A DNA stretch of 64,000 nt from Nioella nitratireducens (GTDB lineage: Bacteria > Pseudomonadota > Alphaproteobacteria > Rhodobacterales > Rhodobacteraceae): assembly GCF_001879715.1 (NCBI RefSeq), contig NZ_MNBW01000009.1, positions 62,001-126,000 on the forward strand, given 5' to 3'. The position numbers and the translations under genes were made by a program. The notes beneath the pieces were generated by a model that had not been told where the DNA came from, did not search any database, and was given only the letters and a program-made list of their open reading frames with translations. Below are positions 3,541 through 17,570 of this stretch, in pieces (within the stretch, counting starts at the first letter, position 1; every line of letters starts with the position of its first letter).

Positions 3541-4938
3541 TCAGGCCTCCAGCATCCGCCGCAACAGCTCCGCGTCCTCGGCGATCTGGCTGTCGACCGA
3601 AATCAGTTCCTCGATCTTGCGGACCCCGTGCAGGATCGTGGTGTGGTCGCGGCCGCCGAACTTTCGACCGATCTCTGGCAGCGAGCGCGATGTCAGCTTC
3701 TTGCACAGATACATCGCCATCTGCCGGGGCCGCGCGATGTTGCGGGCACGGCTGGGGCTCATCAGGTCGGACTGGCGCAGGTGATAATGCTCGCAGGTCT
3801 TCTTGATGATCTCGTCCATGGTGACCTTGCGGTCGGTGGCGCGCAGGATGTCGGACAGGCATTCCTGCGTCATGTCCATTGTGATTTCGCAGCCGATCAG
3901 GTCGGCAAAGGCAAAGAGACGCGTGAGTGCGCCTTCCAGCACGCGCACATTGGTCGAGATGCGATGCGCGATGAATTCCAGCACGCCCGGCGCAATGCGC
4001 AGGTCGGGGGTGCGCTCGCGTTGTGCCTCGACCTTTTGTTGCAGAATGCCGAGGCGCAGTTCGTAATCCGTCGGGTGCAGATCGACCACCAGTCCGCATT
4101 GCAACCGCGAGGCAATGCGATTGTCGAGTTCATCCATATCCACCGGCGCGCGGTCGCCCGAAATGACGATCTGCTTGCCCAGTTCCACCAGGGCGTTGAA
4201 CGTGTGGAAGAATTCTTCCTGCGTCGAATTCTTGCCGGCGATGAACTGCACGTCATCCACCATCAAAACGTCGATCGAGCGGAATACCTCCTTGAAGGAC
4301 AGCGTGTCCTGATCACGCAATGCGCGGATGAAGCGGTACATGAACTGTTCCGCCGACAGGTAGATGACCTTGAGGTCGGGCTTGTTGTTGCGCAATTCCC
4401 AGGCGATGGCGTGCATCAGGTGCGTCTTGCCGAGACCGACCCCGCCATAAAGAAACAGCGGGTTGAAGGACACGGCCCCGCCTTCAGCGACGCGACGCGC
4501 GGCGGCATGTGCCAGTTCGTTGGGTTTGCCGACAACGAAATTCGAGAATGTCAGGCTGGGGTTCAACGCCGATTCCGGCATGCCGTGCGTCGTGACCGCG
4601 ACAGGCGCCGTGCGCGGCGCGACCTGCGCGGCAGGTTGCGACCGGCGGGCGTCCGTCCCATTGGCGTGATCGGCATTGGCCGGGGTCATGGGGGCCTGCC
4701 CGTTGACCGCGAACTCGACGCGCTCGACGTCCAGCCCGGACGAGATCAGGTGCCGCAGAATCACATCGCCGAAATGCTGAGAAACCCATGTTCCGATGAA
4801 GTTCGTCGGAACGACCAGACGCGCGGTGCGGTCTTCCACCGTGTCGAAGCTGATTGGCTCAATCCAGGCAGAAAAATTGTTCTTTCCCACAGATTTCAGC
4901 AGTTCGCCCCGAACGTGTCCCCATTGATCTTGTGTCAT
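3541..4938 (-). CDS. dnaA: chromosomal replication initiator protein DnaA
   Basis: DnaA (465 residues) binds DnaA boxes at oriC and opens the duplex. The domains are complete: N-terminal domain I from MTQDQWGHVRGELLKSVG, a variable linker to about residue 125, AAA+ with Walker A GVGLGKTHL near 165 and Walker B VLMVDDVQF near 221, and the C-terminal helix-turn-helix with the signature GGRDHTTILHGVRKI near 425. The ATG at 4936-4938 matches the usual N-terminus; the in-frame extension to 5145 reads as leader. The leader carries eight GANTC sites, which suggests methylation-linked control. dnaN and recF follow on the same strand. Confidence 0.97.
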   Translation of the reverse strand: MTQDQWGHVRGELLKSVGKNNFSAWIEPISFDTVEDRTARLVVPTNFIGTWVSQHFGDVILRHLISSGLDVERVEFAVNGQAPMTPANADHANGTDARRSQPAAQVAPRTAPVAVTTHGMPESALNPSLTFSNFVVGKPNELAHAAARRVAEGGAVSFNPLFLYGGVGLGKTHLMHAIAWELRNNKPDLKVIYLSAEQFMYRFIRALRDQDTLSFKEVFRSIDVLMVDDVQFIAGKNSTQEEFFHTFNALVELGKQIVISGDRAPVDMDELDNRIASRLQCGLVVDLHPTDYELRLGILQQKVEAQRERTPDLRIAPGVLEFIAHRISTNVRVLEGALTRLFAFADLIGCEITMDMTQECLSDILRATDRKVTMDEIIKKTCEHYHLRQSDLMSPSRARNIARPRQMAMYLCKKLTSRSLPEIGRKFGGRDHTTILHGVRKIEELISVDSQIAEDAELLRRMLEA

Positions 4939-5510
4939 TCTGATCCCGTCATTTTTAGACACGGCCCGATTGAATGGTCCGCGTGGGCGGTCGTTGCGCC
5001 GCCCAAACCCTTGTGCCTGCGCGATCTCCATAAATCTCTTCAGAGGGCCAAGACATGATGCCGTGACAGCATCTCGCCCCACCTTGGCCAACAGGAGGCG
5101 GTCTTTCGACCGAACAGAGGCCACCAGCCAAAAGACCACCACCACGGCCCCGACTCTATTGGTCTTGTGGGGTCGCTGCGATGAAACTCAGGTTGGAGGT
5201 CGTCGGACACTGACTCCTGCCGTCGTCGAAATCGTCGACAACAGAAACCAAACCCAGCTAAAGCCACGAAAGACGCCTGTCTCTCGCACTTGCTGGTCCA
5301 AGGCATCGCACGAAACCGAATTTGATTCCTTGGAAGGAAGCCCTCCAATGTGCTGACGCCCTAATGTCCCCCCAGACTATGTGAATCGCTGAGGTCTAAG
5401 CTAGCGGGACTCCGCGTAAACCCGCAACGACTCTTCGCCCTTGACTCTGGCCTCTTCAAGAACGAATCCGCCGGGCCGTTTGTAAGGGTGCCGAAGAACA
5501 AGGATTTTTC
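4939..5510. promoter_or_regulatory. dnaA upstream region with GANTC cluster
   Basis: There is no credible gene here. Eight GANTC sites start at 5152, 5212, 5324, 5383, 5408, 5429, 5443 and 5464, five of them within 86 bp. In DNA of this GC content about one per 300 bp is expected. GANTC is methylated by CcrM in alphaproteobacteria, and methylation of the dnaA promoter is known in Caulobacter. I saw no convincing TTATCCACA-type DnaA boxes, so I do not call an origin. A promoter for dnaA must lie here but no clear -35/-10 pair could be fixed. Confidence 0.6.
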
Positions 5511-14785: not shown

Positions 14786-14791
14786 AGGAGG
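14786..14791 (+). promoter_or_regulatory. strong ribosome binding site deciding the caspase-like start
   Basis: A full AGGAGG lies 5 bases before a GTG at 14797 and 8 before a second GTG at 14800. Both GTGs are in frame and directly precede a clean signal peptide. This argues against the far-upstream ATG at 14707, which would hide the signal peptide behind 30 residues. Confidence 0.75.
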
Positions 14792-14796
14792 TCGAC

Positions 14797-16161
14797 GTGG
14801 TGCGTCTTGGCGGCCTTTGGGTCGGGCTTCTATCGCTGGGAATTCTGCTGTCCGCCCCGGCCATGGCCGAGCGCGTGGCGCTTGTGGTGGGCAATGCGGG
14901 TTATTCCGTGTCGCCGCTGACCAACCCGGCCAACGACGCCACCGACATGGCCGAACGGCTGGAGGAAATCGGGTTCCGCGTGTTTGGCGACGGCCCGCAA
15001 CTGGACCTTGAGCTGCGCGACCTGAACGTGGCGATCCGCGATTTCACCCGCAGCCTGAACCCCGGCGATCTGGCGGTGTTCTATTACGCAGGCCACGGGG
15101 TGGAATACAAAGGCACCAACTACCTGATCCCGGTGGATGACGACGAGATTGCCTTTGCCGAGGATGTGCCCGACTGGGGCTATCCCGCGCCGCGCCTGCT
15201 GGAACGGCTGGCGGCGACGGGCGCGACCGGGGTGATCATCCTTGATGCCTGCCGCAACAACCCGCTGCCTGAACGCGGGGCCAGCCGCGATGTGGGCACC
15301 GGCCTGTCGGCGATGGAAACCCCCGCCGGAGCGTCGGCCTTTATCATGTATGCCGCCGCACCCGGCCAGACCTCGTCCGACGGGACGGGGCGCAACGGGT
15401 TGTTTACCGAGGCGCTGTTGCAGGCGCTTGACCGGCCTGCGCGGCGCATCGACGACATCATGTACGAGGTGTCTTTCGCCGTGCGCAGTGCCACGCAGGG
15501 CCGTCAGGTGCCGTGGCTGGAATTTGCCTTTGCCGGCGAGGTGCCGCCGCATTTCCAGACCGGGGGCGGCAGGGCCGAGACGAACGAAGTGCCGGTGCAG
15601 GTCGCCGCAAGCCTTGCCACGGCGGGGAAGCCGGGACGCGGGATTGTCGAGGATGGTGACGCGCTTTACGGGCTGATCGCGCTGGCCGACGGGCCGCCGC
15701 CCGACCGGGGGCTGCGGCTGGACATGCTGGCTGGGGGATATGAGGACGCCGTGCAACTGGGCGGGGCCTGCCATGGTTTCGTGGCCTCAAGTCCCGATTT
15801 TCACCTGGACTGGGATGAACCGATCGGCCCCTTGCGCGTGCGCACCCTGAGCGAGGCGGACACCGTTCTGGTGATCCGCACCCCTGGCGGGGCGTGGCTG
15901 TGCGATGGCAGCGAGTCAGACGGATCGCCGCCGGTGGTGGACCTGACCGGGGGCGAGGTGGGCCTCTACCGTATCTGGGTGGGAACCGAACAGGCCCAAT
16001 CGCGCGCGCCGGATGCCGAACTGGTGGTCGAGGTCTGGTCCGACGCGGATGACGCCCCGCCGGTAGCGGGACCCGAGCAAGACGCCCCGGTGCAACTGGT
16101 GCCTGCCGCGCCGATCCCGAATCCGGCGGCCACCATCGAACGGGGATTGGAGATGGAATGA
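14797..16161 (+). CDS. secreted caspase-like (C14) protease with shared C-terminal domain
   Basis: About 454 residues from the GTG at 14797. A signal peptide (LGGLWVGLLSLGILLSAPAMA) is followed at once by the caspase p20 core ERVALVVGNAGY. The dyad is complete: His100 in YYAGHGVEY and Cys152 in ILDACRNNPL, then FTEALLQALDRP. Residues about 305-420 form a separate domain that aligns without gaps to the C-terminus of the neighbouring trypsin-like protein: about 34 of 86 positions identical, and Cys325/Cys369 with the same 44-residue spacing. A Pro/Ala-rich tail follows. A periplasmic or exported orthocaspase is inferred. Substrate, activation and role are unknown. The trypsin-like gene starts 62 bp downstream. 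Confidence 0.88.
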   Translation: MVRLGGLWVGLLSLGILLSAPAMAERVALVVGNAGYSVSPLTNPANDATDMAERLEEIGFRVFGDGPQLDLELRDLNVAIRDFTRSLNPGDLAVFYYAGHGVEYKGTNYLIPVDDDEIAFAEDVPDWGYPAPRLLERLAATGATGVIILDACRNNPLPERGASRDVGTGLSAMETPAGASAFIMYAAAPGQTSSDGTGRNGLFTEALLQALDRPARRIDDIMYEVSFAVRSATQGRQVPWLEFAFAGEVPPHFQTGGGRAETNEVPVQVAASLATAGKPGRGIVEDGDALYGLIALADGPPPDRGLRLDMLAGGYEDAVQLGGACHGFVASSPDFHLDWDEPIGPLRVRTLSEADTVLVIRTPGGAWLCDGSESDGSPPVVDLTGGEVGLYRIWVGTEQAQSRAPDAELVVEVWSDADDAPPVAGPEQDAPVQLVPAAPIPNPAATIERGLEME

Positions 16162-16223
16162 CCTGCCGGTCGGTGGCCCGGCGACGGGCCTGACCGCTTT
16201 TTGAACACAGGGGGGGAAGACGG

Positions 16224-17570
16224 ATGAGTGCAGTGAAATCTTGGATACTGGGCGCGGCCTTGGTGGCGGGGGCGAGCATTGCCTCAAGCGGACCGGCGGT
16301 GGCGCAGGAATTTTGTTCGTCCGACCGGGTGATGGGCGGATGCTCGGTCTCGATCGGCGATTTCCCTTGGATCGTGTCGCTCAATCAGGCCAACGCGCGC
16401 AACCGGTTCGAGGGCCATTTCTGCGGTGGATCGGTGATTGCCGACCGTTGGGTTCTGACCGCTGCCCATTGCGTCGACTCACTGGCGCCGAATGCCCCGG
16501 CAGGGTTCGAGATCTACGCCAATTCGGCCAGTTTGCAGGCGGGCGGCGTGGCCTATGACGTGGATCGGATTTTCGTCCATGCGGGGTATCAGGGCGTCGG
16601 GGTGAACGATATTGCCCTGCTGGAAATCTCGCGCCCGATGGGGATCACGCCGGTGCGCCTGTCGGATGCGGCGTTGGCGCAGAGCGTTGAACGGGTCGGC
16701 GGCGAAACGGTTGTCATTGGCTGGGGCCTGACCCCGCCGCCCAACATCGCGCGCGGGCGTGGTCCCCTGACCCAGGCCGAGCGGGCGGCGACCCAGCCCC
16801 CGTCGATGTGGGATACCTCGCAGGTGTTGCTGGGCGCGGCGGTGCCCATCGTGCAGACCCAGCTTTGCGCCTCGGATGCCGGGCCGGGCGTGATCTGCGC
16901 CGGGTTCCACGACGCGGTGGCCGATGCCTGCCGGGGCGACAGCGGCGGGCCGCTGCTGGCGCATGACGCGCAGGGCTATGTTCAGGTCGGGCTGGTGTCG
17001 GGCGGCAATTATTGCCATCAGGATGGCGACCACTACGGCACCTATACCCGCGTCTCGGCCTTTGCCGACTGGATCACGGCCACCATGGCCGGTCAGACGC
17101 CGCAGGTCGATCTGCGGGCGACAGAACCGGATTACAGCCTGCCGCCGACCTTTGGCATGGTGTCGCTGTCAGCAGGGTTCCAACCCGATCCGCATCGCAC
17201 CGCGCTGTTGGCGGGTGGGATGCTGGAGGCGTCGAGCGTCGGGCAGGGCTGCGCGGGCTTTGTGGCCGAGGCACCGGATTTCCGGGTGATCTATCAGGGC
17301 AGCGGCGCGCCGCTTGGTTTTTCGGTCACCAGCCCCGCGGATACGGCGCTGCTGATCAATGCCCCGGACGGGCAGTGGTATTGCGATGACAATGGCGCCG
17401 GGGGGATGGACCCGTCCCTTGTCTGGGGCACCCCGCCGCGCGGGCAATACGACATCTGGGTCGCCACGGTGCAGCCCCATGCCTCGGTCGGTTATCCCGA
17501 GGCGCAGCTTGTGCTGACCGGAAATGGCGGCAGCAGCGGGCCGTCTGGGGGCGGCGGCGCTGACAAATAG
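16224..17570 (+). CDS. secreted trypsin-like (S1) serine protease with shared C-terminal domain
   Basis: A 448-residue chymotrypsin-fold protease with a signal peptide (AALVAGASIASSGPAVAQ). The triad is complete: His82 in LTAAHCV, Asp129 in NDIALL and Ser240 in GDSGGP. Asp234, six residues before Ser240, corresponds to trypsin Asp189 and predicts cleavage after Arg or Lys. Several cysteines suggest disulfides, which fits the periplasm or outside. Residues about 325-425 repeat the C-terminal domain of the caspase-like neighbour, with Cys343 and Cys387 spaced 44 apart. A GS-rich tail ends the protein. The junction RVMGGCSV resembles a zymogen cleavage site in altered form. Its role is unknown; it is probably co-transcribed with the caspase-like gene. 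Confidence 0.88.
   Translation: MSAVKSWILGAALVAGASIASSGPAVAQEFCSSDRVMGGCSVSIGDFPWIVSLNQANARNRFEGHFCGGSVIADRWVLTAAHCVDSLAPNAPAGFEIYANSASLQAGGVAYDVDRIFVHAGYQGVGVNDIALLEISRPMGITPVRLSDAALAQSVERVGGETVVIGWGLTPPPNIARGRGPLTQAERAATQPPSMWDTSQVLLGAAVPIVQTQLCASDAGPGVICAGFHDAVADACRGDSGGPLLAHDAQGYVQVGLVSGGNYCHQDGDHYGTYTRVSAFADWITATMAGQTPQVDLRATEPDYSLPPTFGMVSLSAGFQPDPHRTALLAGGMLEASSVGQGCAGFVAEAPDFRVIYQGSGAPLGFSVTSPADTALLINAPDGQWYCDDNGAGGMDPSLVWGTPPRGQYDIWVATVQPHASVGYPEAQLVLTGNGGSSGPSGGGGADK

Follow-up and report, generated by a model that had tools for sequence, protein, structure and literature searches.

Why do two proteases of different classes, encoded side by side, end in the same kind of domain? The question is raised by a 64,000-nt stretch of DNA from the marine bacterium Nioella nitratireducens (GCF_001879715.1, contig NZ_MNBW01000009.1, positions 62,001-126,000, forward strand; hereafter the window), in which a caspase-like gene is directly followed by a trypsin-like gene. 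The pair was found to be real and conserved, and its parts are known ones in a combination that was not found described. As a tentative answer, we favour an extracytoplasmic caspase-trypsin module, co-targeted by a divergent PPC-like domain, in which one protease most likely activates the other by a cut at an arginine. Work on bacterial caspases has largely concerned intracellular enzymes of defence or cell death; a caspase that seems to be exported, next to a trypsin zymogen, would give a two-gene system in which extracytoplasmic cascade activation could be tested directly. Even without a cascade, the pair would be instructive, as proteases of two classes that carry one kind of accessory domain.

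Two adjacent genes and their shared domain

The caspase-like gene (C14, MALT1/paracaspase-like; 14797..16161, + strand, 454 aa) has a GTG start preceded by AGGAGG at 14786-14791. The gene for the trypsin-like (S1) zymogen (16224..17570, + strand, 448 aa, ATG start) follows after a gap of 62 bp. They were assigned by Pfam to Peptidase_C14 (PF00656, 3.8e-36) and Trypsin (PF00089, 9.6e-42), respectively. The signal peptides of both proteins were judged by eye, and comprise residues 1-24 of the caspase (14797..14868, cleavage point PAMA/ERV) and residues 1-27 of the trypsin (16224..16304, cleavage point PAVA/QEF). The active-site residues named by an initial annotation of the window, His100/Cys152 in the one protein and His82/Asp129/Ser240 with Asp234 in the other, were all found in place.

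The same annotation had counted 34 identities over 86 ungapped columns between the two C-termini, with cysteines 44 residues apart in both (325/369 in the caspase, 343/387 in the trypsin). Both observations were reproduced. In 300 shuffles of one C-terminus the best alignment reached 19 identities (mean 14.5), and BLASTP between the two C-termini gave 37% identity over 123 aa (E 2e-18). These results demonstrated that the homology of the two domains is real and beyond chance. The cysteine spacing itself is no mark of the protease copies, since domain copies from Brevundimonas and other genera that are joined to no protease have it too.

The domain occupies approximately residues 291-411 of the caspase (15667..16029, + strand) and 310-431 of the trypsin (17151..17516, + strand). 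It had been called uncharacterised, which held for the window's two copies but not for their relatives. The former matched no Pfam, NCBIfam or PHROG family and stayed below the PPC cut-off of 25.9 bits, whereas 11 of 32 aligned relatives matched PPC (PF04151) at E ≤1 (best 8.2e-5), and the full-length sequences of two tandem relatives passed the cut-off (33.2 and 35.0 bits). Solved sequences searched with a profile of the domain yielded just two matches, at E 1.4 and 1.5. AlphaFold on 32 rows predicted an all-beta fold with a predicted local distance difference test (pLDDT) score of 89.8. Its top Foldseek matches were the subtilases SubHal (6.0e-5) and KP-43 (1.0e-4), next to two CUB chains and the PPC entry 5sv5 (9.6e-4), with modest query TM-scores of 0.36-0.47 over these five. 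The SubHal and KP-43 alignments spanned ~100 of >430 residues, a part which we take to be their C-terminal beta-domains.

Judged by these profile matches and the predicted fold, we call the shared domain a divergent relative of PPC, probably of the beta-sandwich type. PPC is a beta-sandwich that is often appended to secreted proteases. It is said to mediate protein-protein and protein-carbohydrate contacts, and a Tryp-PPC protein has been described in Hahella chejuensis (PMC2605481). No caspase-PPC fusion is mentioned in the available portion of that article. The window's proteins are like such secreted Tryp-PPC and Subt-PPC proteases in joining a protease to a C-terminal domain, here a putative PPC-type beta-sandwich, and unlike them in that their domains lie below PPC sequence detection.

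Predicted arginine pocket and predicted activation bond

The p20 domain of the caspase (residues 26-243, 14872..15525) was modelled with pLDDT 78-97 apart from one ten-residue block at 62. Its His-Cys dyad is intact, with the catalytic His100 at 15094..15096 and Cys152 at the end of Asp150-Ala-Cys152 (15244..15252). At E ≤1, the solved sequence relatives of the caspase were MALT1 chains only (best 1e-9). Their alignment sets one Asp opposite Asp47 (14935..14937) and another opposite Asp150, and we take these two to be Asp365 and Asp462 of MALT1. Asp47, His100, Asp150 and Cys152 were invariant in 9 of 9 loci that carry the pair. In MALT1, the P1 arginine is bound by Asp365 and Asp462, with Glu500 as a third anchor (PMC4626109). 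From the two of these three pocket positions that were compared, it is predicted that the caspase would cut after arginine.

A model of the caspase with its domain was built from 18 of 36 prepared rows, leaving out the rows of stand-alone domains. Its mean pLDDT was 75.6; beside the well-modelled p20 blocks, the C-terminal domain scored 58-87 and the linker <50. This linker (about residues 247-296, model residues 223-272; 15535..15684) is predicted to be disordered, and each of the nine orthologues has two or more Arg in it. The top Foldseek match of the model was MALT1 caspase-Ig3 (1.8e-16). Two-domain superpositions on MALT1 had a root-mean-square deviation (rmsd) of ~20 Å, and therefore only the caspase part of the fold match is real; with the caspase-only entry 3v4o the rmsd was 4.3. 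By sequence and by predicted fold, MALT1 is thus the closest solved relative of the caspase. The C-terminal domain of the window's caspase matched no immunoglobulin (Ig) family by sequence, such as would correspond to the C-terminal Ig-like domains of MALT1 and CanA. At the very C-terminus (16120-16158), a short NPxATIER motif is kept in the six genus copies despite a variable preceding stretch; of the three loci outside the genus set, two have a changed form of the motif and one lacks it.

In the trypsin, the signal peptide is followed by a short propeptide, QEFCSSDR (16305..16328), whose last residue, Arg35, would be P1 of the activation bond. The catalytic domain runs from Val36-Met-Gly-Gly to residue 284 (16329..17075, + strand), and the His82/Asp129/Ser240 triad and the specificity residue in S1, Asp234, were invariant in 9 of 9 loci. 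So was the zymogen-type bond Arg35/Val36-Met-Gly-Gly. The chain of active plasma kallikrein begins at the residue aligned with Val36, as do several other solved active chains, and Arg35/Val36 is predicted to be the S1 zymogen activation bond. Cys31 and the stretch Asp34-Arg35-Val36-Met-Gly-Gly-Cys40 were likewise invariant, so that in 9 of 9 orthologues a cysteine stands on either side of the bond (16305-16343); these cysteines might still tether the propeptide once the bond is cut. Among the solved relatives of the trypsin was VesB of Vibrio cholerae (PDB 4lk4; 2.8e-25). VesB is a zymogen with a C-terminal beta-sandwich, and we know of no caspase partner for it. VesB requires a GlyGly-CTERM tail that includes a hydrophobic segment (PMC6219818), whereas the nine trypsin C-termini, inspected by eye, end in a Gly-rich stretch and Lys and lack such a segment.

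Joined together, these features suggest the following mechanism. A MALT1-like caspase with specificity for arginine would, together with a trypsin zymogen and like it exported, constitute a small extracytoplasmic proteolytic module. The shared divergent PPC-like beta-sandwich would bring both to the same envelope site or partner, where one enzyme would activate the other by a cut at arginine. In the favoured direction the caspase would cut the Arg35/Val36 bond of the trypsin; in the reverse direction the trypsin would cut the disordered, Arg-containing linker of the caspase. The former is simpler because trypsin-type zymogens need a cut for activity. The predicted arginine specificity of the caspase and the arginine activation bond of the trypsin fit activation of one by the other. 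The conserved adjacency and co-inheritance of the genes and the purifying selection on both catalytic domains (see below) also count in favour of the module, as do the precedents of CanA and of natural trypsin-pseudocaspase fusions. Domain homology, intact catalytic residues, the Asp alignment with MALT1, the zymogen-type bond, adjacency and co-inheritance were computed, and the signal peptides were read by eye; we infer that both proteins reach one compartment, that the domain targets them together, and that one cleaves the other in the direction given. A more specific form of the mechanism, in which an exported MALT1-like initiator caspase and the trypsin zymogen would meet by homotypic docking of their PPC-like domains, as death-fold domains do in cells, appears unlikely; if true, bacteria would have in their envelope a counterpart to caspase or complement-like cascades.

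MALT1 and CanA are intracellular proteins with Ig-like domains and signalling or nuclease partners, whereas the caspase of the pair starts with a signal peptide (by eye), carries a PPC-like domain and is encoded next to a trypsin. The likeness lies in a related caspase domain with two aligned Arg-pocket Asp, followed by a C-terminal domain that is here a predicted beta-sandwich. MALT1-like CanA of the Canu system activates its operon partner, a nuclease, by cleavage (PMC12799240); no linked pro-nuclease was found among nine genes flanking the pair in the window. In Alphaproteobacteria, natural trypsin-pseudocaspase fusions have been described, namely QC pseudo-orthocaspases with an N-terminal trypsin domain (PMC6426788). 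The pair is like orthocaspases (C14B) in combining a bacterial C14 protease, basic P1 (as predicted here) and a caspase-trypsin association in Alphaproteobacteria. However, QC pseudo-orthocaspases are one chain with a catalytically altered caspase and a C-terminal DUF4384, while the pair consists of two chains with intact active sites and a PPC-like domain on each. LypABC (PMC13236601) is also among the nearest literature, and the text of PMC3501461 contains no occurrence of PPC or trypsin. The initial annotation knew of no described system of this make-up, and this stood: among the matches listed, neither a secreted caspase-trypsin pair nor a caspase-PPC fusion was found in the open literature under the terms used.

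Conservation and surroundings of the pair

In 6 of 6 genus genomes, a full-length trypsin was found with the caspase copy of the domain adjoining. The trypsin identity across the genus, own genome excepted, was 73-76%. Alterinioella and two uncultured Nioella contributed three more loci, and in all nine distinct Nioella/Alterinioella loci the caspase lay directly upstream of the trypsin, with an intergenic gap of ~20-65 bp (signal-peptide starts picked by eye). The recurrent gene pair that the initial annotation had named as support does exist, bound to one lineage and, at the eight loci compared, to one site. Exactly one C14 match was present in each of the six genus genomes (one of them 81% complete), and the paired trypsin was the sole PF00089 match >130 bits per genome, other matches being partial at 43-80 bits; in G198 the paired trypsin was matched in two separate parts, of 81 and 60 bits. 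Both domain-bearing proteases occurred together in four (G000, G186, G212 and G247) of 394 genomes drawn from the family, a draw that, like those from class and phylum below, includes the window's own genome. No genome with one partner alone was found in it, with not every long frame classified. The median ratio of nonsynonymous to synonymous polymorphism (pN/pS; here and below over 33 of 36 pairs, three near-identical ones left out) was 0.17 for the caspase p20 and 0.24 for the trypsin catalytic domain, showing that both catalytic domains are under purifying selection.

The nine flanking genes of the window encode, by Pfam, an enoyl-CoA hydratase, a Fapy-DNA glycosylase, ubiE, ABC1/ubiB, a DUF4147-MOFRL protein, which we take to be glycerate kinase, FlgD, FliK, a flagellar rod/hook protein and MotB. 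In the window and seven compared loci (L170 was left out), the pair is located between ubiE-ubiB(-glycerate kinase) and flgD; glycerate kinase was present in six of the seven and not found at L159. This single site, from ubiB or glycerate kinase to flgD in all eight loci, speaks for a reading of the two genes as historical neighbours, that is, co-inherited secreted proteases whose domain serves folding, secretion or stability and whose link is co-expression at most, in nutrition or envelope turnover. So does the abundance of the domain in the genome. Against it stand the adjacency in 9 of 9 loci with both catalytic domains under purifying selection, and the finding that no family genome held one partner only among the frames classified. 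We consider this reading rather unlikely.

The surroundings bear also on a link to defence or cell death, as known for both protease classes; nothing found here connects the pair with it. In such a module, an envelope signal would trigger the caspase, and the trypsin would attack the envelope or an invading phage or predator. MALT1-like caspases do act in bacterial immunity, as in Canu (PMC12799240), conflict systems often contain trypsin-like and caspase domains (PMC8195603), and the general caspase model of PADLOC was matched at 1.1e-10. However, the signal peptides read by eye place both proteins outside the cytoplasm, and the nine flanking genes are metabolic, DNA-repair and flagellar ones, as at the seven other loci; none is a Canu-type pro-nuclease, a STAND nucleoside triphosphatase (NTPase) or an effector-associated domain (EAD) protein. 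The pair is like the EACC1-associated and trypsin/caspase conflict systems, in which peptidases are joined through shared non-catalytic domains (NF047832; PMC8195603), but those are NTPase/EAD-based, and by Pfam none of the nine flanks is such. The score against the EACC1-associated caspase model NF047832 was 44.8 bits, far below the cut-off of 140. Megablast gave no near-identical plasmid match. A defence or cell-death role is accordingly regarded as improbable. Known defence systems were rejected as candidates on the same grounds, with general similarity only in PADLOC (weak peptidase similarity to Avs1b, 4.8e-4, and LmuA, 0.004) and none in PHROGs.

Distribution and origin of the domain

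That the domain is unique to the pair was considered and rejected. Seven genes at four loci of the window's own genome carry nine copies between them; two of the seven are the window's pair, and the remaining five specify small or tandem-repeat proteins of secreted appearance. The profile of the protease copies was matched at E 1e-12 in 67 of the 394 genomes drawn from the family; the domain profile was matched in 15 of 289 genomes of the class draw at E 1e-8, and a wider profile in 11 of 299 genomes of the phylum draw at the same threshold. A scan of named genomes gave 47 loci, including Brevundimonas, Maricaulis, Hyphomonadaceae, Henriciella, Sphingosinicella and Aurantiacibacter, and also one Wenzhouxiangellaceae and one Rhodothermales metagenome-assembled genome. 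The domain is widespread in Alphaproteobacteria, as a stand-alone protein, as tandem copies or in fusions. In four genera (L013, L014, L101 and L104, Pfam run on two) it precedes a trypsin-like domain, a type which we label V8-like, and it accompanies Trypsin_2 (HtrA-type) domains in L135, L208, L210 and L226. Further companions were OmpA (two cases), LCCL, GYF_2, DUF2125 and a Ser/Thr kinase. Invisible to Pfam in the window's copies, the divergent PPC-like domain recurs widely in secreted proteins of Alphaproteobacteria and is combined with PA-clan proteases in several arrangements. On a caspase it was found, among the loci examined, in the window's lineage only; 19 further domain-bearing regions contained no caspase, with not every long domain-bearing frame of the family scan classified.

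These and several other observations weigh against the proposed cascade. The domain is not peculiar to the pair, and therefore its sharing is less surprising; carried by many unrelated proteins, it may be a generic module. It was absent from the best 28 caspase loci of other genera, taken from a longer list, and within ~1.5 kb of these no chymotrypsin-type trypsin was found, the type to which the profile used is restricted (it is blind to HtrA- and V8-type proteins, 0 of 7 known loci). In nine other family genomes with S1 and caspase matches, the two were not neighbours among the matches listed, each genome's candidates being scored in part; the nearest were ~95 kb apart (G153). Because the pair occupies one chromosomal site in all eight loci, its recurrence reflects common descent and not repeated assembly, and its conservation may go back to one evolutionary event. 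In the caspase, the domain has lost the acidic DD motif and evolves fast (median pN/pS 0.53, compared with 0.35 for the trypsin domain), a surprising behaviour for a shared receptor site. Moreover, in 12 loci of unpaired family trypsins, P1 was basic at all nine readable sites (6 R, 3 K). The arginine activation bond is therefore no signature of a caspase partner, and the suggestion that it points to the caspase was weakened. Trypsin-type specificity, as predicted from Asp234, could also let the trypsin activate itself.

It is nearly as likely as the cascade that the trypsin activates itself, or that co-targeting occurs without any cascade. In the latter case, the shared domain would bind the same envelope or extracellular ligand and the two proteases would work independently on a common target, the trypsin being self-activating. 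Taken alone, this reading is possible and held slightly less firmly than our tentative one. The domain is combined with PA-clan proteases in several architectures and in both orders, as would suit a general module for targeting or substrate binding. Its presence on OmpA, LCCL and kinase proteins, the contacts described for PPC (PMC2605481) and the basic activation sites of unpaired trypsins point the same way. However, this reading leaves the adjacency of the sole caspase and the sole high-scoring trypsin unexplained. In addition, the two window copies of the domain are just 33-37% identical and that of the caspase is without the conserved acidic residues, so their ligands may differ. As for the cascade with co-targeting, the idea of shared targeting or activation put forward by the initial annotation came out in part: the homologous, predicted all-beta domain, the recurrence of the neighbour pair and the arginine features fit it, while the wide spread of the domain, the common descent of the loci compared and the basic sites of unpaired trypsins count against it.

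Whether the caspase and trypsin domains are sister copies was examined by three trees, which disagreed. A careful tree of 60 rows (60 of 62 copies, two partial ones dropped) placed them as sisters (96/82). In a quick tree of 130 rows, from which the very divergent row L035_2022 had been dropped, they were apart; the tree that held them together was 16.25 log units above the free search, with a p value of 0.659 in the approximately unbiased (AU) test. A careful tree of 88 rows (a chosen subset of the 130, with four eligible rows removed by name: three near-copies and the long-branched L135) joined the caspase copies to the terminal tandem repeat of another family (99/89). In the AU test on these 88 rows, caspase plus trypsin had p-AU 0.281 and trypsin plus V8-like copies 0.268, so the joint clade was not rejected. 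The branch of the caspase domain is long, 1.1-1.8. The sister relationship, with the 60-row tree for and the 88-row tree against it, was not retained as a result; the two copies may go back to one recruitment followed by copying or to two recruitments. For the reading as historical neighbours, the 88-row tree, which separates the copies, makes separate recruitment possible, whereas the 60-row tree and the AU test on 88 rows argue against that reading.

Several other carriers of the domain were observed. On contig C3 of the window's own genome (~86-89 kb; L009 5845-9027), three consecutive genes encode 3, 1 and 1 PPC-like copies in proteins that appear secreted by eye; the last has a long Pro-Ala repeat tail, and like arrays are present in other genus genomes (L089-L094). 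At L010, a stand-alone copy (3986-4513, +) adjoins a protein (4575-5399, -) with two Cys-rich NPCPYTNDGDCDEPNG repeats; in another genus the domain is fused to a Cys-rich repeat that resembles these (L037 1459-2568). A Ser/Thr protein kinase (L219 8217-10505, +) has a C-terminal PPC-like domain and is possibly an extracytoplasmic sensor, and one protein (L215 386-1696, -) has a PPC-like domain followed by LCCL domains. Another (L088 601-2799, -) combines two PPC-like domains, a weak ricin-lectin-like stretch below the cut-off and an OmpA domain, an architecture that points to the outer membrane or peptidoglycan as the location of the domain.

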